64,000 bases of DNA from Sneathiella limimaris (GTDB lineage: Bacteria > Pseudomonadota > Alphaproteobacteria > Sneathiellales > Sneathiellaceae). The stretch spans positions 992,001 to 1,056,000 of the forward strand of contig NZ_JABBYJ010000001.1 of NCBI RefSeq assembly GCF_012932565.1. Reading direction: 5' to 3'. Position 1 is the stretch's first letter. The number at the start of each line of letters is the position of its first letter. A program made the position numbers and the translations under genes. Positions 25,494 through 38,816 of this stretch are shown here, in pieces. A model generated the notes under the pieces. The model worked only from the letters and a program-made list of their open reading frames with translations. It had not been told where the DNA came from and did no database searches.

Positions 25494-26039
25494 TTAGCGT
25501 TGAGCCTGATTGTCAGAGCTTGAGCTTGAGCTTGAGCTGGCGCCATCGTCACCAGACTCTCCGCCATCATCACCGCTTTCGCCGCCGTCATCAGCGCCAT
25601 CGTCACCGGACTCGCCACCATCGTCAGCGCCATCGTCCCCAGACTCGCCACCATCGTCCCCAGACTCACCGCCATCATCGCCAGACTCGCCGCCTTCACC
25701 GCCGTCGCCGTCGCCGTCACCGTCACCATCTCCACCTTCGCCATCGTCACCGGACTCGCCACCATCGCCGTCGCCGTCGCCGTCTCCACCTTCGCCGCCT
25801 TCGCCGCCGCCATCGCCGTCGCCGTCACCACCGCCTTCGCCGCCGCCATCGCCGTCACCGTCGCCATCACCGCCGCCTTCACCGCCTTCACCGCCATCAG
25901 CGAAAGCAATGGGGTTTTTCAGGGCCGGCCCATCCTGTGTGAAATCAACTGTGATTGGGGTTAGAGCGAGAGTTAAGGCCAGCGCACTTGTGCCTGTGAT
26001 GCCACCGAGTAGTCTGAAAAGCTTCTGTTTGTCTTCCAT
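25494..26039 (-). CDS. Secreted Gly/Asp-repeat protein A
   Basis: A 181-residue protein with a hydrophobic leader (about 9-27, GGITGTSALALTLALTPITV), a short linker ending AFA, then about 130 residues of nearly pure Gly, Asp, Glu and Ser: DGDGDGDGG units first, later ESGDDGG units, then eight Ser. Very acidic and low-complexity, it could bind calcium or other cations or act as an extended surface polymer; no RTX nonapeptide is present. It is a paralogue of the protein at 27141, with shared leader core LALTPITV and the same first repeat block. ATG 26039 follows CAGGAGA. A promoter of the locus-specific type lies at 26103-26127. The repeat DNA is in-frame codon repetition. Confidence 0.7.
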   Translation of the reverse strand: MEDKQKLFRLLGGITGTSALALTLALTPITVDFTQDGPALKNPIAFADGGEGGEGGGDGDGDGDGGGEGGGDGDGDGGGEGGEGGDGDGDGDGGESGDDGEGGDGDGDGDGDGGEGGESGDDGGESGDDGGESGDDGADDGGESGDDGADDGGESGDDGGESGDDGASSSSSSSSDNQAQR

Positions 26040-26808: not shown

Positions 26809-27141
26809 TCAGCTACTCACAGTGATCCATTTTCCGTGCTTATTGCGACAGGCAGTGGCTGTCGTTTTGGCCTGGAGCGTTCTGTCATTCCAGGCTTCAG
26901 TTATGTAGGAGCGGCAGAAGTGGCCGGTAACTGATTTCCAGGTTTTGACGGGCGTGACAATCACTCTGTCCGTGTTGGTGAGTTGAAGGCCGCCGCTTTG
27001 GCCACTGACGTTCTTTTCCAGAACGTTTTGGATGAGGCTCTGTTTTTCCTGTTCGGGATCCTGAGCCGGGGAAGGGGTCACGCAAGCCGTAGTCAAAAGT
27101 GTAAAGGGTAGAAGCAGAGTGAGGACCGGGTATCTGTTCAT
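26809..27141 (-). CDS. Lipoprotein with RT0821/Lpp0805-like surface-antigen domain
   Basis: A 110-residue predicted lipoprotein: signal peptide LTLLLPFTLLTTAC with lipid-attachment Cys20. Its C-terminal domain (about 36-108) has TPVKTWKSVTGHFCRSY and ATACRNKHGKW with two Cys (76 and 98), the pattern of the COG4520 RT0821/Lpp0805 surface-protein family. The same domain forms the periplasmic end of the anti-sigma factor encoded divergently at 28344 (PVKTYKSSSGHWCREF, VACRELKGRW), with similar Cys spacing (22 against 21). The start overlaps the upstream stop as TAATG, and the next gene starts one base after its stop. It could feed back on the anti-sigma factor by sharing its ligand. Confidence 0.78.
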   Translation of the reverse strand: MNRYPVLTLLLPFTLLTTACVTPSPAQDPEQEKQSLIQNVLEKNVSGQSGGLQLTNTDRVIVTPVKTWKSVTGHFCRSYITEAWNDRTLQAKTTATACRNKHGKWITVSS

Positions 27142-27710
27142 TATTCCCAGCCCTTTGAAATCATATCCTGTTCCTGTTCAACGGACAGACTTTCGCTGGA
27201 AGGTTCTGCAGACCCTGAGAAACCACTTTCCCCGCCGTCGTCGTCATTTTCGTTTTCTACCTCATTTTCCTCGCTGTCATCGCTGTCGTCGCTGTCGTCG
27301 CTATCGTCACTCTCTCCGCTTTCACCGCTTTCGCCAGAGTCATCTCCATCATCGCCGGACTCACCGCCATCATCACCGGACTCGCCGCCTTCGCCACCAT
27401 CGCTGTCACCGTCGCCATCGCCGTCGCCATCACCGTCACCGTCGCCATCACCGTCGCCATCGCCGTCACCGTCGCCATCGCCGTCACCATCACCACCGTC
27501 GCCGTCGCCATCACCACCATCACCATCACCGTCGCCATCACCACCGCCTTCGCCGCCTTCGCCGCCATCGGCATAGGCATGTGGGACTTTGAGGAACAGG
27601 CCGTCATCAGCGACATGTACTGTAATGGGGGTCAGCGCGAGCATAAGGGCAAGGGAACAGGTGCCGATTGCCAGGCTCGCCTTGAAGTGACTTTGAAAGC
27701 TAACTTTCAT
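27141..27710 (-). CDS. Secreted Gly/Asp-repeat protein B
   Basis: A 189-residue paralogue of the protein at 25494. Leader about 10-32 (GTCSLALMLALTPITV) ending HAYA, then GGEGGEGGGDGDGDGDGG, a long pure DG tract (at least 14 units), ESGDDGG units, DDS repeats and a more complex acidic tail (SESLSVEQEQDMISKGWE) that protein A lacks. ATG 27710 is preferred over GTG 27722 four codons upstream. It is the first gene of a minus-strand operon with the lipoprotein and the dioxygenase. The pure DG tract is made of GATGGC/GATGGT-type codons and is prone to length change. Confidence 0.7.
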   Translation of the reverse strand: MKVSFQSHFKASLAIGTCSLALMLALTPITVHVADDGLFLKVPHAYADGGEGGEGGGDGDGDGDGGDGDGDGGDGDGDGDGDGDGDGDGDGDGDGDGDGDGDSDGGEGGESGDDGGESGDDGDDSGESGESGESDDSDDSDDSDDSEENEVENENDDDGGESGFSGSAEPSSESLSVEQEQDMISKGWE

Positions 27711-27751
27711 GCAATAATCCACTTTGGTTTTTGTGACTGCTATAGTTAGAT

Positions 27752-27776
27752 AACACTTATGAACTTATTCTCATCC
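27752..27776 (-). promoter_or_regulatory. Candidate ECF-type promoter P3 before protein B
   Basis: Minus strand GGATGAGA (27776-27769), 12 bases, GTGTT (27756-27752). The -10 and spacing equal P1 and P2; the -35 agrees at five of eight positions. It lies 42 bases before ATG 27710. Confidence 0.4.
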
Positions 27777-27808
27777 GTCCTCATGATAATTTTTTTTAAA
27801 ATTTTTTG

Positions 27809-27833
27809 GGAATAAATTTCTTACCCGCGTGTT
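27809..27833 (+). promoter_or_regulatory. ECF-type promoter P1 before the sigma factor gene
   Basis: GGAATAAA (27809-27816), 12 bases, GTGTT (27829-27833), 32 bases before the sigma gene start. It is identical in both elements and spacing to the site at 26103-26127. Autoregulated ECF genes normally carry their own recognition sequence, so this is probably the sigma factor's own promoter. Confidence 0.65.
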
Positions 27834-27864
27834 GTTCTACAAATAGAGGCTTGAAGGGATATTC

Positions 27865-28347
27865 GTGAGAGATCAGGTGCGTGAACAGATGATCGGGTAT
27901 TTACCCCGATTAAGGCGTTTTGCGTTGACGTTGACTGGTCATGAAGCGGATGCCGATGATCTCGTGCAGTCGACTTACCTGAAAGCGATTGAAAATCTGG
28001 AGAAATGGGAGCTGGGCACGCGGCTTGACAGCTGGCTCTATCGGATCGCGCAGAACCTGTGGCTGAATACGGTGCGGCATCAGAAGGTAAAAACCGCCTA
28101 TGCCGAGGATAAAAGCCATTTTCAGGATACGGTTGTGGATGGGGAAGACGCGGTCGTCCAGAAAAGTGAATTGAAGCAGGTGGAGAAGAGCGTAGAGGCT
28201 CTCCCGCCTGATCAGAAAGTGGTTCTGCTGCTTGTGGCAGTTGAGGGATATGGCTACCAGGAGGCCGCAGAAATTCTGGAAATACCGATTGGCACCTTGA
28301 CCAGTCGGCTGGCGCGAGCCAGGCAAAGTCTCTTAGAGAAGAGGTGA
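27865..28347 (+). CDS. ECF RNA polymerase sigma factor
   Basis: A 160-residue ECF sigma factor. Region 2 is at about 8-75 (LPRLRRFALTLTGHEADADDLVQSTYLKAI and RLDSWLYRIAQNLWLN, with the GHEADADDLVQ core) and region 4 at about 105-157 (ALPPDQKVVLLLVAVEGYGYQEAAEIL and the helix GTLTSRLARARQSL). GTG 27865 follows AAGGGA. The last four bases overlap the anti-sigma start as GTGA. Promoter P1 suggests autoregulation, and P2/P3 suggest control of the divergent Gly/Asp-repeat operon. Confidence 0.92.
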   Translation: MRDQVREQMIGYLPRLRRFALTLTGHEADADDLVQSTYLKAIENLEKWELGTRLDSWLYRIAQNLWLNTVRHQKVKTAYAEDKSHFQDTVVDGEDAVVQKSELKQVEKSVEALPPDQKVVLLLVAVEGYGYQEAAEILEIPIGTLTSRLARARQSLLEKR

Positions 28348-29015
28348 CGGTGATGGATGATAAAGACCTGTTTGAGAACCTGTCGACATATAAAGATGGG
28401 GAGCTTTCAGAGGAGGAGAGCCGGAAAATCCGCGAGCTGATTGCGGAAAATGAAGACGCGGCGAGCCTTTATGAAGGTATCAAGACTGTTGATGAGCAGG
28501 CCAGCCGGGAATTTGATGCAATGCTTACGGCGCCGGTACCGCTGTCTCATGTCAGCAGCATTCATGCCGCGTTCGAGGCGCACAATCCTCCTCCGGCGCC
28601 GCGTCAGGCCCCTTGGTGGACGACGGCGATTGCCGCCTCTATCGTGTCCATTATGGTGAGTGGTGTGATCGGGTTCTTCGTGTTTGACCATTACGTCACC
28701 AGTTTGAGGCAGGAAATGCAGCAGGCCCGTGTTTCAGCAAATGATAAGCTGGCCGTGTTGTTTCAGGAAGCTCTGGAAGGCCGCTCCAGCGGTCAAGTTA
28801 TCTCCTTTACAGATCCCGTTGCGGAGATCTCTTTCGAGTTAAAACCTGTAAAGACTTATAAAAGCTCGTCAGGGCACTGGTGCCGTGAATTTCAGGAACG
28901 TATTGAGCAAGACGGCCGTTTTGAAGTGCGTCAGGGCGTGGCTTGCCGGGAACTGAAAGGTCGCTGGTATCGTTTGAAGACGACAATTGATGGTGAGATG
29001 TCCAGGTTGCTCTGA
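28344..29015 (+). CDS. Transmembrane anti-sigma factor with surface-antigen-like sensor domain
   Basis: A 223-residue protein coupled to the sigma gene (GTGA overlap; ATG 28353 with GAGG ahead is an alternative start, 220 residues). The cytoplasmic N-terminus (ENLSTYKDGELSEEESRKI) is of the small anti-sigma type, without zinc ligands. One membrane span lies at about 93-115. The periplasmic part (about 136-212) is an RT0821/Lpp0805-like domain: PVKTYKSSSGHWCREF, then VACRELKGRW, with Cys180 and Cys201. It matches the lipoprotein encoded at 26809 along about 75 residues, including LEGRSSGQ against LEKNVSGQ. I infer that this domain senses an envelope state or ligand to which the lipoprotein also binds. 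Confidence 0.8.
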   Translation: MTVMDDKDLFENLSTYKDGELSEEESRKIRELIAENEDAASLYEGIKTVDEQASREFDAMLTAPVPLSHVSSIHAAFEAHNPPPAPRQAPWWTTAIAASIVSIMVSGVIGFFVFDHYVTSLRQEMQQARVSANDKLAVLFQEALEGRSSGQVISFTDPVAEISFELKPVKTYKSSSGHWCREFQERIEQDGRFEVRQGVACRELKGRWYRLKTTIDGEMSRLL

Positions 29016-32624: not shown

Positions 32625-32782
32625 GGCTACTCGATGTTGGCAGGTGATGTGTGGAGAAATGGCAACAGGTTGCTTTGAATGGGATACGATTGCAGGTGAA
32701 TGGCTATAATAGAGTCGTGAAATCTGTGGTTTCATCTTATTCAGCTAATGGGTCGTGGATCGGGAACTTGGGGAAATCTCGC

Positions 32783-34840
32783 GTGGGAAAGCTGTTTGGG
32801 GTATGTTTGGCGGTGTTTTTGGGCGTGTGCAGTTTGGCGCAGGCAGAAACAGATGCCATTAATGCAAAGCTCATTGCGCCTGTAGGATCAACGGATCCCC
32901 TCAAAATTGATCTCCCTGATGATATGGATCTGTTGCTCCTGACCACTCTTTCGGTTGAGCTGGATCAGGTAGATGTGACCTCGCTTTTATCGCTCGATGG
33001 TCAGGATTTTCTCTACCAGCCGCCAGAACCCTTAAGCGCCGGGACCCATGAAGTTAAACTCCTCAGCTTAACTGATCCCGCAAATCCGGTAGTGGTTGGC
33101 CAATGGACGTTTGAGATTACCGGTGGGGCCGGTGGGTCTGTTTCACTGAACCAGCAGCCCACTGAAGAGCAAATTGCCCGCGCGGAAAAAGCGATGACGA
33201 GCGCTAATTTCAGAGCCGATACTTTGACAGAGTTCAGCTATCGGTTTGATGATGAGCGGATTACGTCTGAACCTGACCGCGCCATTTTAAGTGGTGCTGG
33301 TGATCTGAGTGGTGAAATTGAAAGCGGGAACTGGCGGTTTTCCAGCCGTGGGAATTATCTTCTGCAAACCGATAATGATCTGTCCTTGACCGGCAATGCG
33401 CTGGATATTGGCGAATATGACCTGCGGCTCGATTATGCGGGAGATACTGTTCAGGGCGGTGCTGTTCTGGGTCATCACGATATTGGGCAGCGCTCCCTGA
33501 TCATGGATGGGTTTTATCGCCGGGGCATGTCGGTTCGGCTCGGCGATGCGGGGCAACATATCACGGCGCAGGGTTTTTCCTTCGGAACTGAGTCCTTGAG
33601 CGGTGGTGATAACCTGATGGGCCTCAATGATGAGGATGAACGTCTGTCTGGCGGTCTTGTAACCGTGCAGCCCTTTTCCAATGATATTGATGCCTTAAAG
33701 ATTACGGGTATTTATTATCAGGGCAAAGGCGCTGGTATCGGGGATGGTATCATGATCACCGAGCCCGTTGCCGATGGCAGGGGCTGGGGCGCCATTGTTA
33801 AAAAAGGCTTTGCAAATCAGCAGCTTACTATTCGCGGCGAATATGCTGAAACCCGCTATGACCAGGATGGTGATGAGGGAACTGCTCCTGAAGAGGATGC
33901 GCATGCGATTTCGGTTGTTGTTGAAGGACGTCCGTTTGCTGAAGGTCCCATTCTGCTCGGCAATGCTACAGATGTATTTCTTGGTGCCCGGTATGATCGG
34001 GTGGGAACCTATTTCCAAAGCCTTGCAAATTATGGCCTTGCCGGGGACCGGGATGCCTATACCGCCTATGGCAATCTGAACTGGGGCGCGCTGGCGACAA
34101 ACCTGCAATATTCGTATGAGACAAACAACGTGGATGATCTGGACTCACTTCCCACCGATCGTCTGCAGAACCTGAGTTTTGGGCTTAATTACACCTTCAT
34201 GCCGCAATCCGAGGGGCTAGCGTGGCTTGGAACCCCAAATGTTTATCTTTCCGGATATCTTGCAGATATGGATCGTGTGGACACGCCGGGCGGTTATCTG
34301 GGGCCAGATACAGATAATACATCTACATCCCTCACTGCGGGTGTGAACACGAGCTATGGGAATTGGAGTTGGGGCTTGTCCCATTCCATTTCGACCTATG
34401 AAGATGATACGGATTTGAGCAGCGATACCATCAATAACGGAACTGCGCTGAACGTAAACTGGTCAGATTATGATCGGTTCTCCATCGGGAGTAGCGTGCA
34501 GTTCAACGTGTTTGAAGACCGGGATACCAACGAGATCAGCTATGGTACCAACTTCCTGGTGGATATCTCCGCCGAGGTGATCAAGGATACCCTCAATCTT
34601 AATTTGGATTATAATTTGAACCTTGCAGCCGGTTCAGGCGACCAACCAGATACACACCTTGTAAATGGTGAAGTTGAATGGACTTTTCTTCAGCCGGAAC
34701 GCAATCAACCCGGATTGGCGCTGGCTTTAGGCGGCTCAATGGAGAATACAAATGACAATGCAATCAGCACAGATGATGAAACGGTCTACCAGGCTTTCTT
34801 TATCATCAGGGTTAAAGCCCCTTTTGCATATAATGACTAG
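32783..34840 (+). CDS. Large outer-membrane beta-barrel-like protein
   Basis: About 685 residues. GTG 32783, after GGGGAAA, gives a clean signal peptide (GKLFGVCLAVFLGVCSLAQA); a GTG at 32651 would add 44 residues ahead of it. After a short N-terminal domain (about 25-130) the rest is rich in alternating strands with aromatic ends (YRFDDERI, YLSGYLADMDRV, WSWGLSHSIS, LNLDYNLNLAAG), as in large porin-like or autotransporter-type barrels. It ends RVKAPFAYND, not in the usual terminal Phe. I cannot assign a family. It heads a five-gene operon: the next start overlaps its stop by eight bases. By context it may be a secretion channel or adhesin controlled by the ECF pair. Confidence 0.7.
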   Translation: MGKLFGVCLAVFLGVCSLAQAETDAINAKLIAPVGSTDPLKIDLPDDMDLLLLTTLSVELDQVDVTSLLSLDGQDFLYQPPEPLSAGTHEVKLLSLTDPANPVVVGQWTFEITGGAGGSVSLNQQPTEEQIARAEKAMTSANFRADTLTEFSYRFDDERITSEPDRAILSGAGDLSGEIESGNWRFSSRGNYLLQTDNDLSLTGNALDIGEYDLRLDYAGDTVQGGAVLGHHDIGQRSLIMDGFYRRGMSVRLGDAGQHITAQGFSFGTESLSGGDNLMGLNDEDERLSGGLVTVQPFSNDIDALKITGIYYQGKGAGIGDGIMITEPVADGRGWGAIVKKGFANQQLTIRGEYAETRYDQDGDEGTAPEEDAHAISVVVEGRPFAEGPILLGNATDVFLGARYDRVGTYFQSLANYGLAGDRDAYTAYGNLNWGALATNLQYSYETNNVDDLDSLPTDRLQNLSFGLNYTFMPQSEGLAWLGTPNVYLSGYLADMDRVDTPGGYLGPDTDNTSTSLTAGVNTSYGNWSWGLSHSISTYEDDTDLSSDTINNGTALNVNWSDYDRFSIGSSVQFNVFEDRDTNEISYGTNFLVDISAEVIKDTLNLNLDYNLNLAAGSGDQPDTHLVNGEVEWTFLQPERNQPGLALALGGSMENTNDNAISTDDETVYQAFFIIRVKAPFAYND

Positions 34841-35927
34841 GTATCTGGTTCTGATATTACTGTGTCTGGCGCCAGGTCTTGCCAGCGCGACGATTAACAG
34901 TGTCACAACCACCCCGTCCAGCGTGGCAATTCCAGTAACAGGAAGTGCGCGTGTCACAGTGACCTGGATTGTCAACCGGACATCCGCTGCGGGTCGCGTT
35001 GTGCCGGTAACCTCTGCTAATGCGGAGTTGCGGATCGGGGGTGTTCTGATCACCAATCTCGCCGGGAGCTTGAGCGCGACTTCCTCGGTTGGAGTTGGCG
35101 TGACAGATATCCTGCAATTTACGGAAACCTATACCCTGACGCCTGCGCAAACCTCAGAGATTGCCAAAGCAAGCGCGGGGAGCGTGAGCGTGCGCCGGAT
35201 TTTTACAGATACGGAAAACACAGTTATTGGAACGCTGAATGTCGGGGCTGGTGCGAGCAATTCGGGGGATTTATCCCTTCGCCGGATTGAGCTGTCCTTT
35301 GAGAACACGTCTAAAACAGACGTTGTGCGTCAGGGCGAGCGGCAACGAGCGGTTGCTGAAATCAGCTTTAGGAGCAGTGGCCTTATTAAAGGTGAGTGGC
35401 GCCTGGCTGATCCGTCCAGCACCAATGGGTCTAGTCGCTATCGCGTTTTGCAGGTTGTTCGTCAGCAGTTGGTGAGTTCCGGTCAGGGTCGTACCCGGAT
35501 CGTAAGTCCGCCGCTGCCAACCAATAAAATCGGTCTCTATCTTGTCACATTCGTCGCCGAGGATGGTGATGACAGCCTTGAGTTTCCTGTCCTTCGATAC
35601 TTTGTTCTGCAAGGTCAGCAGGGCGTTGCTCAGGAAAATCTGGAAACCTATACGCCTGCAGAAGGGGCAGCCGTCAGCCCGAACACGGTTTTCTCATGGC
35701 CGGTTGTGCCAAACGCCTTTGCCTATCAGGTTGAGATCCTTGAAAAGGGTAAGGCGGATGTGGTGAGCGGAAAGCTTGTAAAGGCAGAGGATTTAAGCCT
35801 GTCTTTGGAAAGTTTCTCAATCGATCATCTTGAGGCAGGTAAGGTATATGATTGGCGTTTGCGGGCCTTTGGCGCAGGTGGACAGGTTATCGGCGTCTCC
35901 CCCCGGAAAACTCTGTATGTACCTTAA
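34833..35927 (+). CDS. Secreted protein with fibronectin-III-like C-terminus
   Basis: A 364-residue exported protein. ATG 34833 opens a signal peptide (RYLVLILLCLAPGLASA) and overlaps the barrel gene's stop by eight bases. The N-terminal half has beta-sandwich-like repeats rich in Thr/Val/Ser (TTPSSVAIPVTGSARVTVTW). The C-terminal 100 residues (YTPAEGAAVSPNTVFSWPVV, then AYQVEIL, GKVYDWRLRAFGAGG) look like an FN3 module. No enzymatic motif. Position between barrel and ECF genes suggests an envelope partner of the barrel or a subtilase substrate. Confidence 0.65.
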   Translation: MTRYLVLILLCLAPGLASATINSVTTTPSSVAIPVTGSARVTVTWIVNRTSAAGRVVPVTSANAELRIGGVLITNLAGSLSATSSVGVGVTDILQFTETYTLTPAQTSEIAKASAGSVSVRRIFTDTENTVIGTLNVGAGASNSGDLSLRRIELSFENTSKTDVVRQGERQRAVAEISFRSSGLIKGEWRLADPSSTNGSSRYRVLQVVRQQLVSSGQGRTRIVSPPLPTNKIGLYLVTFVAEDGDDSLEFPVLRYFVLQGQQGVAQENLETYTPAEGAAVSPNTVFSWPVVPNAFAYQVEILEKGKADVVSGKLVKAEDLSLSLESFSIDHLEAGKVYDWRLRAFGAGGQVIGVSPRKTLYVP

Positions 35928-35938
35928 GATGAGGTAGC

Positions 35939-36490
35939 ATGAGCGAGAGCCCAGGAGAGTTACTGACCAAGATCAGCAAAGGCGATGAGAAGGCCTTTGC
36001 TGATTTTTTTCGCTTGTTTGAAAAGCGCCTCTATAATTTTATCAAACAAAAATTGAACGATCCGTTTGAAGCGGCCGACATACTGAATGAGACGTTCCTT
36101 GAAGTCTGGCGAAAAGCCGAGACATTTGAGGGACGGTCAAAAGTGTCAACCTGGCTATTTGGAATAGCCTATTTCAAAACGGTGGATCGTATGCGTAAAA
36201 ATGGCAAAGTGATTGTCGATAGCGATAGCATTCCTGAAATTGAGGATGACAGCGCGGATGCCATGGCCTGTCTTCTGTCCAAGGAGAACGGTGCCCATAT
36301 TCGCTTTTGTCTGGAGCAATTAAAGTTGCCACATCGAACTGTGATCGAGCTGGCCTTTTTGCAGGACATGGCCTATGGCGAGATTGCGTCGGTTGTTGAC
36401 TGCCCTGAAAACACAGTCAAGACCCGTATGTTCCATGCCAAGCAGTTGATGAAGAATTGCTTGTCCAACCGTTTAGGAGGGACAGTATGA
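35939..36490 (+). CDS. ECF RNA polymerase sigma factor
   Basis: A 183-residue ECF sigma factor. Region 2 about 15-85 (LYNFIKQKLNDPFEAADILNE, FLEVWRKAETFEGRSKVSTWLFGIA), region 4 about 120-175 (LPHRTVIELAFLQDMAYGEIA, NTVKTRMFHAKQLMKNCL). ATG 35939 follows GAGG. The stop overlaps the anti-sigma start as ATGA. It sits inside an operon of exported proteins, which it probably controls. Confidence 0.92.
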   Translation: MSESPGELLTKISKGDEKAFADFFRLFEKRLYNFIKQKLNDPFEAADILNETFLEVWRKAETFEGRSKVSTWLFGIAYFKTVDRMRKNGKVIVDSDSIPEIEDDSADAMACLLSKENGAHIRFCLEQLKLPHRTVIELAFLQDMAYGEIASVVDCPENTVKTRMFHAKQLMKNCLSNRLGGTV

Positions 36491-37116
36491 GCAAGGAAAT
36501 AGAACAGTTATTGCCGTTTTATGTGAACGGAACCCTATCCGATGCCGAGCGGAAGGAAGTTGAAGCAGCGCTTGAAACCAGCCCGGAACTTCAGGAGGAA
36601 GTTAAAATGCTGAAAGCGCTCCGGACTGAGATGCAGGCGATAGAGCTGGAAAGCTCCCCTGGTGAGTTGGGGCTGAAGCGGCTTCAGAAATCCCTTGCGG
36701 CGGAAACGGGTCCAAGCGAGTTTGCGGAGCTTACAGGCGCGGCCAATGACAATGTGGTCCGATGGGGCTGGAAAGCAGCGGCCGTTGCGGCTTGCCTTCT
36801 TCTGGCAGTGCAAAGCTTCTTCATGGTTCAGCAGAGCAATCTGTCTGATGAGGATCTTGTTGCGGCAAGTGGCAAGCAGGTTATCGCCGTGCAAGGCCCG
36901 ATCTATAGCGTGACCTTTGTCCCGACAGCCAAGGAAGAGGATATTCGTGCCCTTTTGCTGTCAGTGAACGGCAGAATTATTAATGGTCCTTCCGCCATTG
37001 GCGTCTATCAGGTTTCAATCCCTGGGGAGCAGGCACCGATTTTGAAAAAGCTGAAAGCCAGAGGAAATCTGATCGATACGGTTCAGCTTGAAGGCACGAG
37101 CCAGAAGAGCCAGTGA
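36487..37116 (+). CDS. Anti-sigma factor with subtilase-propeptide-like periplasmic domain
   Basis: A 209-residue protein. N-terminal anti-sigma region (EQLLPFYVNGTLSDAERKEVEAAL), one membrane span at about 95-115, then a periplasmic domain at about 133-201: YSVTFVPTAKEEDIRALLLS, NGRIINGPSAIGVYQVSIP, ILKKLKARGNLIDTVQ. This strand-helix-strand-strand-helix-strand order and the V-F-P/G-x-Y-x-V pattern resemble propeptides of subtilases. ATG 36487 follows AGGAGGG, and the stop overlaps the subtilase start (TGATG). I infer that the encoded subtilase binds and cuts this domain, or is inhibited by it. Family assignment of the domain needs a structure comparison. Confidence 0.75.
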   Translation: MSKEIEQLLPFYVNGTLSDAERKEVEAALETSPELQEEVKMLKALRTEMQAIELESSPGELGLKRLQKSLAAETGPSEFAELTGAANDNVVRWGWKAAAVAACLLLAVQSFFMVQQSNLSDEDLVAASGKQVIAVQGPIYSVTFVPTAKEEDIRALLLSVNGRIINGPSAIGVYQVSIPGEQAPILKKLKARGNLIDTVQLEGTSQKSQ

Positions 37117-38816
37117 TGCAAAAATGTCTTCTGATACTCAGTCTGTTCCTGATGATTGGAACAGCGGCGGCGCAAACACGCTCGGGTTCAGTGCCTGGCA
37201 CAGCGCCGGGAACGCCGCCTGCCGCAACAGATCCAACGGGTGCCGGCCAAACAGGATCTTCTTTGCCGTCTGTACCTTCTACCTCCGCCACACCGGAGCG
37301 GGACCCTACGGGCGCTCCTTTGCGAGAAACCTCTCGAGAAACCCGGCCAGAGCCTGAGAGAGAGCCTCAAAGAGTTCCGGCAAGGGTGCCGGAAAGGCCA
37401 TCAGCAAAGGAGCCGGAAACCGATCGGGCCCCTTCGCAGCAGCGCGATGTTCGTATCCCGCAACCAGCACCAACACAGCTTCAGTTCGCCAGGGTCATGC
37501 CGGGCTGCGTTTCGCCGGGGCAAACCTTTCTTATTCAGGGGCAAGGGTTTGCTAACCTCGATCCCGTGGCGGCCTTTATAAACTCACCGTCGCAAAAGAT
37601 CAGGGCGCGAATTGTTGGCGTTAGTCCGACACAAATTGCCTTGCAGCTTCCAAAAGCACCTGAACTTCAAAGCCAGAGCTATGGCGTCACCTTTGCAACC
37701 AAGGGAGCAACGGTCGAGACAGATACACAGCTGTCATTGCGTCCTTGTGGGGAAAGAACTGGTGTCAGCAGAGCTGAGTTGCTGATGATGGGACCGCTTG
37801 ATCAGTTTCAGGCGGTTACGGCGGAGCTCGCCGCACGGAACCTTCAGGTTTCAGAAAGCTATGATTTGCAGGGGTTTGCTCAGTTTCTTCTTGTCGTTGA
37901 GGCAATCGATGCCCAGACCCTCATCGCCGAGTTCCAGACCCTGTTCCCTGATGTGACGATTGATTTCAATTCAAGCCTGGAAGCGGCCTCAACACCAGCC
38001 CCAAGATTGTTTGCAAAATCATTGGTCAATTGGCCAGACAAGGCACAATGCGCCCAAGCTCAAGCAGAGATCAAGATCGGGCTGTTGGATGGCGTTGTTG
38101 AACGAACGCATCCTGCTTTCCAGTCAGGTTCAATCGTCGGGGAGCTATTTATCAAGGATGCCCGCCCAGATCTGGGGCATGGTACGGCCATTGCGTCCAT
38201 TCTGATCGGGGATGCGCCAGATCTTGGAATTTCCGGACTTCTCCCAAAAGCCACGATCTATAATGCGGTCGTCCTTCGGGAAAGCCAAGCAGGCCCGCTG
38301 GCAAGTGTGAAAGCCATCGTGAGGGGGTTGGATTGGCTGGCCGTCCAGAAGGTTCGGCTTGTGGGTGTTTCGCTTGCGACGTTAAGTCAAAATCGCGTGC
38401 TGGAGCGCGCGTCCCGTTTTGCCCTGCAGCAGGGTATGATCCTGTTTGCCGCTGCCGGCAATAATGGGCCAGAGGCAGGGAGTGCGTATCCTGCAGCCTA
38501 TCCTGGGGTCTTTGCGGTAACGGCCGTCGACGCGGCAAAGCGCCTTTATCAGCAGGCGAATGTTGGAGATTACATTTCTTTTGCCGCCCCTGGTGTGGAC
38601 GTCTGGGTGGCAACTCCTGATGGCAGTGGTGCCTATAAAACCGGGACGTCATTTGCAACGCCATATGCCATGGCGACCGCCGCCCTTTTCCTCGCGAGGA
38701 ACCCATCGTTATCACGTCAAGTTCTGGAAAAGGTCCTGGCGCAAACAGTTACCCCGCTTGGCGAGCCGGGAGAGGAGCGGCTGTTTGGCAAAGGGTTGCT
38801 GCAGGCAAAATGCTAG
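37116..38816 (+). CDS. Secreted S8 subtilisin-like protease
   Basis: A 566-residue secreted protease. Signal peptide at 1-20, a Pro/Arg/Glu-rich linker (about 21-120), an IPT/TIG-like domain (about 128-210, VSPGQTFLIQGQGF), a propeptide-like module (about 225-286) and the S8 catalytic domain: Asp325 in LLDGVVERTHP, His355 in GHGTAIAS, Asn449 in AAAGNN, Ser512 in GTSFATP. All catalytic residues are present. ATG 37116 overlaps the anti-sigma stop (TGATG); a GTG at 37113 is also possible. Genetic coupling to an anti-sigma factor with a propeptide-like domain suggests a role in sigma activation or in processing the barrel or FN3 protein. Confidence 0.9.
   Translation: MQKCLLILSLFLMIGTAAAQTRSGSVPGTAPGTPPAATDPTGAGQTGSSLPSVPSTSATPERDPTGAPLRETSRETRPEPEREPQRVPARVPERPSAKEPETDRAPSQQRDVRIPQPAPTQLQFARVMPGCVSPGQTFLIQGQGFANLDPVAAFINSPSQKIRARIVGVSPTQIALQLPKAPELQSQSYGVTFATKGATVETDTQLSLRPCGERTGVSRAELLMMGPLDQFQAVTAELAARNLQVSESYDLQGFAQFLLVVEAIDAQTLIAEFQTLFPDVTIDFNSSLEAASTPAPRLFAKSLVNWPDKAQCAQAQAEIKIGLLDGVVERTHPAFQSGSIVGELFIKDARPDLGHGTAIASILIGDAPDLGISGLLPKATIYNAVVLRESQAGPLASVKAIVRGLDWLAVQKVRLVGVSLATLSQNRVLERASRFALQQGMILFAAAGNNGPEAGSAYPAAYPGVFAVTAVDAAKRLYQQANVGDYISFAAPGVDVWVATPDGSGAYKTGTSFATPYAMATAALFLARNPSLSRQVLEKVLAQTVTPLGEPGEERLFGKGLLQAKC

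Follow-up and report, generated by a model that had tools for sequence, protein, structure and literature searches.

A propeptide-like domain and a mimic of a subtilase processing site on an anti-sigma factor encoded with an S8 protease: a candidate dock-and-cut switch for an ECF sigma factor

Anti-sigma proteolysis is textbook biology, and for many extracytoplasmic function (ECF) sigma systems neither the site-1 protease nor its signal is, to our knowledge, known. Here we describe a locus of Sneathiella limimaris whose sequence suggests the enzyme, its docking domain and the bond that would be cut, namely a gene block encoding an ECF sigma factor, a membrane-spanning anti-sigma factor and a secreted S8 subtilase. 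The block lies in the 64,000-nucleotide stretch analyzed here (the window; NZ_JABBYJ010000001.1, positions 992,001 to 1,056,000), which is part of contig 1 of a 3.66-Mb genome. The locus resembles the RseA/DegS/RseP system (PMC8103513, PMC10028731) in having a single-pass anti-sigma factor, an ECF sigma factor and a presumed periplasmic site-1 cut followed by a site-2 metalloprotease. Unlike in RseA/DegS/RseP, the gene for the presumed site-1 enzyme, a subtilase, lies with those of the sigma and anti-sigma factors, and the anti-sigma factor, unlike RseA, combines a propeptide-like domain with a mimic of the enzyme's own junction. RsiP (PMC8844934) and RsiV of Bacillus likewise represent a site-1 cut in an ECF anti-sigma factor, whereas their site-1 protease is the general signal peptidase. 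In the type III-E CRISPR system Csx29/Csx30/CASP-sigma, a co-encoded protease cuts the inhibitor of an ECF-like sigma factor, which it recognizes via the C-terminal domain of the inhibitor (PMC10028731). The likeness is a dedicated protease gene encoded with sigma and inhibitor; the difference is that Csx29, a CHAT protease, belongs to a CRISPR effector complex and is activated by target RNA, and that no propeptide-like domain is mentioned for that system. In the ECF54 group, genes for subtilases, carboxypeptidases and CHAT proteins occur nearby, and this group was proposed to act without an anti-sigma factor (PMC8999054); our locus shares the subtilase gene near the ECF sigma gene but has an anti-sigma factor. 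Finally, POIA1 and subtilase propeptides (I9; PF22148) are alike in fold to the periplasmic domain of the anti-sigma factor, which differs from them in being displayed on an anti-sigma factor, usually without an active-site tail and with weak sequence similarity. A literature search of partial coverage found no description of the anti-sigma/S8 pairing, and the group descriptions of the main ECF classification may mention S8 neighbours.

The reading that we prefer, with a probability of about 0.58 on the sequences and predicted models, is that the S8 protease is a dedicated site-1 protease that is docked by the propeptide-like domain and cuts the anti-sigma factor. On the cytoplasmic side, the membrane-spanning anti-sigma factor would keep the ECF sigma factor inactive, while in the periplasm it would display a propeptide-like module and a flexible linker with the protease's own cleavage signature. 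Once the S8 protease is exported and has shed its propeptide, the anti-sigma domain could dock on the vacated propeptide-binding surface, and the protease, on what is the simplest account of domain and site mimic together, would treat the anti-sigma factor as a second propeptide, docking on its domain and cutting its linker. Residues P4-P1 of the linker (L124-A127 here) would enter the active site, the cut being the site-1 cleavage, and the remaining stub would be processed by the site-2 metalloprotease of the genome, which encodes a site-2-type (M50) protease (E 2.8e-66), so that the sigma factor is released. A loop of the linker back to the active site appears feasible, since the propeptide fold brings the start of its first strand next to the end of its last one and since 11 residues separate A127 from the domain. 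The level of the protease may also feed back on the switch, because sigma factor, anti-sigma factor and protease are encoded in one tight gene block. If true, a propeptide that acts in cis as chaperone and inhibitor would have been turned into a signal receiver, and the module would turn an unknown site-1 step into a two-protein test.

The five genes of the block are co-directional on the plus strand and encode two exported proteins, the ECF sigma factor, the anti-sigma factor and the S8 protease (Table 1). The sigma and anti-sigma genes overlap by 4 bases and the anti-sigma and S8 genes by 1 base, as the TGA stop codon of the former (37114-37116) shares a base with the ATG of the latter in the sequence TGATG; a GTG lies one codon upstream of this ATG. 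Both reading frames are where the preliminary description had placed them. The anti-sigma factor has features of a class I membrane anti-sigma factor, with an N-terminal anti-sigma domain, an adjacent ECF sigma gene and a single transmembrane helix (mean hydropathy of 1.95 over 19 residues) followed by a periplasmic part. The N-terminus superposed on RslA (3hug_B) with Z 7.3 and a root-mean-square deviation (rmsd) of 4.1 over 60 aligned residues in VIA-align 2, a modest score for helices, and no zinc-binding His or Cys could be read from the sequence of the zf-HC2 region in the window.

The linkage between the propeptide-like domain and an S8 protease, which the preliminary description had drawn from this locus, holds widely. 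In the same genus, the anti-sigma factor was found in 7 of 24 genomes (its own included), and an S8 gene adjoins it in all seven. Among 385 genomes of the same class, 14 genomes were matched at 16 places (counted manually); 14 of these places have the C-terminal domain and 13 of the 14 have an adjoining S8 gene, while neither of the two places without the domain has one. Layout exceptions in the class are L050, with the S8 gene on the other strand, and L048, with the S8 gene after a gap. Scanning GTDB contigs yielded 79 loci, 74 of them with an S8 gene downstream on the same strand (in L100 after a 791-base gap). Of the remainder, L099 and L112 reach a contig edge or come within 600 bases of one, and in L090, L093 and L111 (Denitrobaculum or uncultured Kiloniellaceae) the fetched flanks contain no sigma factor and no S8. 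With a profile restricted to the domain, 39 places were matched in 36 of 398 sampled Pseudomonadota genomes (window included), i.e., ~9% of the genomes with one false match, and these places comprise 32 with S8, six with a C14 (caspase-fold) protease and one that is not an anti-sigma factor. A second domain profile, run on 274 genomes of another class in the phylum, matched 18 places: eleven with S8 (L235 counted by its prodomain only, before a contig end), two with C14 (one already counted, the other found by a custom C14 profile), two cut by contig ends, two without protease and one false. Together, the domain searches gave 52 evaluable places, 43 with S8 (window included), seven with C14 and two with neither.

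As a control, we took 20 of 32 zf-HC2 places from 86 genomes of the class of the window, with up to ~6 kb on each side, and used custom profiles. S8 and the domain were found at 0 of 20 loci each and C14 at one (L260, a divergent match with E 7.7e-8); within 1.5 kb of 29 zf-HC2 loci other than the window, S8, domain and C14 were all absent (0/29). The linkage thus follows the domain, and the control rejects chance adjacency of anti-sigma factor and S8.

The second line of evidence is the linker between the membrane and the domain, residues 120-130 of which are disordered in the model (predicted local distance difference test, pLDDT, below 50). It carries a conserved motif of the shape hydrophobic-x-x-[AL]-[SG]: in 74 aligned anti-sigma sequences, A127 is kept in 73, P4 is F, Y, L, V or M in 71, and the residue after A127 is S or G in 71. 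P4 and P1 are main specificity positions of subtilases, and the motif is what a subtilase site could look like. In the window, the linker reads LVAAS and the propeptide-mature junction of the S8 protease reads LEAAS; this junction is the best match to the linker within its own S8 protein. The P4 class agrees in 59 of 74 pairs (49 aromatic, 10 aliphatic), which are not independent. We scored linkers against junctions using 52 representatives chosen by judgement from 95 pairs so that each close group contributed one (L230 and L238 formed no pair, their junction being missing or ambiguous). The mean BLOSUM62 score was 6.33 for cognate pairs against 3.31 for permuted ones (p 5e-5), and the excess persisted at the level of 15 clades (p 0.0097). 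It is confined to P4 (p 0.0019), P2 (p 1e-4) and P1 (p 4e-4), with none at P3 (p 0.33) or P1' (p 0.43). When the window of comparison was slid along the S8 protein, the signal was strongest in register (Z 5.2 at offset 0), and among 110 offsets lying further than 5 residues off none reached this value (maximum Z 3.84, standard deviation 1.33). The junction is the top match to the cognate linker in 10 of 52 S8 proteins, where non-cognate linkers give a mean of 3.8 (maximum 9) and letter-shuffled ones a mean of 0.56 (maximum 4). It falls within the top 1% in 20 of 52, compared with a mean of 7.9 (maximum 15) for non-cognate and of 1.4 (maximum 6) for shuffled linkers. Where a distant pair has Leu at P1 of the linker, its junction often has Leu at P1 as well (e.g., YRTL/FKVL, YGTL/YGVL), and in the group of the window Ala at P1 of the linker pairs with Ala, Ser or Gly in the junction. 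Cleavage of the linker by signal peptidase was also considered and set aside, as residues such as E, Q and R, which many relatives have at -3, do not suit that enzyme.

Third, the fold of the periplasmic domain resembles that of subtilase propeptides. An AlphaFold2 model of the anti-sigma factor, built from an alignment of 58 rows, gave the secondary structure β139-144, α150-159, β163-166, β173-177, α182-191 and β196-201, with a mean pLDDT of 90-96 per ten-residue block from 141 to 200, 75 for 131-140 and 58 for 201-209. The propeptide-like order of strands and helices that the preliminary description had read from the letters is thus present in a confident model, and comparison with I9 and fervidolysin propeptides, the check it had named, points to the same fold, the best PDB matches being subtilase propeptides and POIA1 at scores that are all modest. 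Foldseek placed POIA1 (1itp, E 7e-3) first, followed by the prodomain of EpiP (3qfh) and by other S8 propeptides, with the BPN' prosegment (1spb) fifth. In VIA-align 2, the four top matches were propeptides or POIA1 (Z 7.7-7.9; a Z below 8 possibly reflects only a common arrangement), led by the Tk-subtilisin propeptide (2z58_B; Z 7.9, rmsd 4.0, 66 aligned residues), and 26 of the 50 matches listed were S8 prodomains, pro-subtilases or POIA1 by manual count. At the sequence level, a Pfam scan of the domain copy in the window matched no family. The fervidolysin prodomain family PF22148 was matched by 13 of 42 isolated domains (window included) at E up to 10, and of 20 relatives scanned singly one exceeded its cut-off (L052, 23.9 versus 21 bits). 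A search of PDB sequences with the domain profile returned two chance-level matches, neither of them a propeptide. The domain was also compared directly with the cognate S8 prodomain for signs of homology: hhalign gave a probability of 4%, though the alignment was colinear over 48 columns; reciprocal hmmsearch yielded one match among 74 at E<0.01 in either direction, the shuffles giving 0 and 1 among 740; and 16% of cognate pairs exceeded the 95th percentile of shuffles in pairwise scoring. As none of these results is significant, we do not claim common descent, and 'propeptide-like' is a statement on the predicted fold with partial sequence support.

The partner itself is a subtilase with an intact catalytic set and a propeptide of its own, both as initially described. 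PF00082 matched residues 318-560 (E 9.1e-28, 97.8 bits versus a cut-off of 21.8), the only PF00082 match in the genome, and D325, H355, N449 and S512 align with the catalytic residues of subtilisins. In 74 aligned S8 sequences, the Asp is present in all, the His in 73 with one masked, and the Asn and Ser in 73 with one truncated. From the N-terminus, the protein comprises a signal peptide (by eye), a Pro-rich stretch, a TIG-like domain, the prodomain and the catalytic domain. Since the model of residues 218-566, prodomain included, superposes on pro-subtilisin E (3whi_A) with Z 40.2, the protease has an ordinary cis-acting propeptide; by eye, S8 N-termini readable in other groups also appear to have a prodomain. 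A protein-only scan of genome contigs with the S8 protein as query matched no relative.

Several loci carry the domain beside a different protease. A C14 gene lies next door in G625 and G745 (in the latter a partial match, E 2.1e-8) and, at two places each in G695 and G604, elsewhere in the cluster with at least one gene in between. A regular expression of the linker motif matched 35 of 43 S8-linked loci of the domain searches, none of 5 C14-linked loci (one protein per locus) and none of 4 without protease. Only 5 control loci were usable for the linker motif, which makes that control weak. All five C14-linked linkers contain Arg, which also occurs in S8-linked linkers; bacterial caspase-fold enzymes often cut after Arg or Lys. 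No S8 match was found anywhere in the genomes of G604 (C14-linked) and G848 (no protease neighbour). In a tree of 55 anti-sigma rows, three rows without protease fall inside the S8-linked rows, and the C14 rows form long branches of uncertain placement, so the tree does not fix the direction of the swap. The apparent exchange of S8 for C14 under the same domain amounts to a natural experiment in rewiring. We give even odds to a broader proposal, that this is a widespread, apparently unnamed module in which a propeptide decoy and an autoprocessing-site mimic capture a maturing protease at the membrane to cut the anti-sigma factor, and in which the exchange for C14 kept the docking fold and changed the linker signature. 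Two domain-bearing anti-sigma-like proteins (L168, L169) are also encoded a short distance from each other, accompanied by a C14/Sel1 gene and one of the sulfate-permease family, and these domains tend by eye to have an extra Cys pair near their ends.

The following points weigh against the dock-and-cut reading. On the structural side, the beta-alpha-beta-beta-alpha-beta ferredoxin-like plait is common to many other families. No Foldseek match reached E 0.001, Atx1 was third and unrelated ferredoxin-like proteins were intermixed; in VIA-align 2, such proteins scored nearly as high as the propeptides (ribosomal protein, Z 7.6; elongation factor, 7.5), and the direct sequence similarity of domain and cognate prodomain barely exceeds shuffles. 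As to the mimicry, the junctions were placed at a fixed distance after strand 4 of the prodomain, their processing sites thus following from position, and in 15 of 74 pairs the two P4 residues belong to different classes. Within their own S8 protein, only 10 of 52 junctions score highest, and offsets -26, -6 and 26 reach Z 3.3-3.8, so shared ancestry inflates the scores. The register of the motif was recognized by eye before the tests, which makes the offset scan the control to weigh, and the 15-clade grouping is our own. The docking geometry also differs between the two proteins, as the motif precedes the domain in the anti-sigma factor and follows the prodomain in the protease. As to the linkage, 17 of the 39 domain-only places come from two families (f171, f174) and hence are not independent; L090 and L093 have the domain with neither sigma factor nor S8 in the fetched flanks, and seven places are linked to C14 and two (L229, L231) to no protease.

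In one alternative, the domain responds to some other signal in the periplasm, the cut is made by a general site-1 protease such as DegS, and the sigma factor merely has S8 or C14 as an output. In its favour, the domain persists where the protease partner is exchanged or missing, and in Kiloniella-like and gamma relatives the block encodes two further exported proteins. We nevertheless consider it unlikely, because it leaves unexplained why linkers resemble their cognate junctions at P4, P2 and P1, why the motif is absent from the tested C14-linked linkers, and why the domain looks like a propeptide.

Less probable still is a display of an I9-type inhibitor in trans, in which the anti-sigma domain would quiet the S8 protease at the membrane and loss or titration of the protease would alter the state of the anti-sigma factor and hence sigma output. 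The stand-alone inhibitor POIA1 is the top Foldseek match, and the copy in the window has 8 residues after strand 4; VIA-align 2 aligns this copy as far as residue 209, opposite residue 69, with which the Tk-subtilisin propeptide chain ends. The C-terminal tail of I9-type inhibitors occupies the active site of the protease. However, 60 of 74 aligned sequences end 3 or fewer residues after strand 4, so that most of these domains are without an active-site tail, which argues for docking rather than inhibition; the S8 protease, with its own prodomain, needs no second inhibitor; and C14-linked relatives match the same domain profile. Because some relatives of the domain have C14 instead, and G604 is without any S8 match, 'natural inhibitor of S8' is not the whole story. 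The preliminary description had proposed direct control by either of two routes, binding that keeps the protease quiet or cleavage that frees the sigma factor. The cleavage branch gains from the linker that mimics the S8 propeptide junction, and we favour it on sequence grounds; the inhibition branch is weakened by the missing tails, although the copy in the window could both dock and inhibit. A third alternative, that the anti-sigma domain is a foldase in trans so that only membrane-docked protease becomes active, fits the propeptide-like fold and the co-production suggested by overlapping genes, but is very improbable given the well-formed cis prodomain of the S8 protease.

Table 1. Coordinates of the gene block and of the domains and motifs of its anti-sigma factor and S8 protease in the window
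Feature	Position	Strand	Basis or remark
Predicted exported protein, ~690-729 aa, first gene of conserved block	32651..34840	+	homologue at same place in relatives
Exported protein	34752..35927	+	order conserved in relatives
ECF sigma factor, 183 aa	35939..36490	+	Sigma70_r2 E 1.3e-13, r4_2 E 1e-10
Anti-sigma factor, 209 aa	36487..37116	+	open reading frame, Pfam and structure model
Anti-sigma domain, residues 3-63	36493..36675	+	zf-HC2 at 3-34, E 6.9e-7, above cut-off
Transmembrane helix, ~residues 99-119	36781..36843	+	helix 92-119 in model; hydropathy
Linker motif L124-V-A-A127-S-G, candidate cleavage site (putatively after A127)	36856..36873	+	A127 in 73/74 rows; resembles S8 junction
Propeptide-like periplasmic domain, residues 139-201	36901..37089	+	predicted model, structure matches
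Secreted S8 subtilase, 566 aa from ATG 37116	37116..38816	+	open reading frame, Pfam, subtilisin alignment
IPT/TIG-like domain, residues 134-206	37515..37733	+	E 0.0063, below Pfam cut-off; model has strands within 123-210
Prodomain of the S8 protease, residues 218-285	37767..37970	+	structure model
Propeptide-mature junction L288-E-A-A291-S, putative autoprocessing site	37977..37991	+	follows prodomain strand 4
Catalytic domain	38067..38795	+	D325 (38088), H355 (38178), N449 (38460), S512 (38649)

Of the two exported proteins at the start of the block, the first had no match in a Pfam scan, and a relative of the second has a C-terminus that is weakly Ig/Fn3-like. A shared sigma-dependent promoter was looked for upstream of the first gene of the block and was not found. 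In several relatives, a further conserved protein is encoded upstream of the block (L023 2-976, L024 8722-9000 and L045 3-1334; 44-49% mutual identity), and it has no homologue among the open reading frames of at least 100 aa between 26001 and 33000 of the window.

The closest relative (L020, genome G008) has an anti-sigma frame interrupted inside the propeptide-like domain and an open S8 frame with the catalytic residues in place. In Denitrobaculum and uncultured Kiloniellaceae (L047, L079-L081; L049, L090, L093), anti-sigma factor and S8 occur with no sigma match in the fetched flanks, together with a further anti-sigma copy that has neither sigma factor nor S8. The record of L100 is titled Oceanobacillus, and its sequence groups with Paracoccaceae in the anti-sigma tree, so that the assembly is probably mislabelled or contaminated.

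The window contains a second ECF sigma/anti-sigma pair at 27865-28347 and 28344-29015, in the region 26809-29015. The periplasmic end of this anti-sigma factor has a weak match to the 17-kDa surface antigen family (PF16998, E 0.011, below cut-off), and by eye a small exported protein encoded at 26809-27141, on the strand opposite the pair, has a similar [WY]-K-S-x-x-G-H-[WF]-C-R stretch. Judging from these sequences, the second anti-sigma factor is possibly another one that resembles a neighbouring secreted protein. Near this pair, the minus strand encodes two similar exported proteins (25494-26039 and 27141-27722) that consist mostly of Gly/Asp/Glu/Ser repeats. In G020, of the same genus, an S8 protein with a similar Gly-Asp stretch (L026 5686-7110) is encoded beside a different anti-sigma factor, one with a weak 17-kDa-antigen match.

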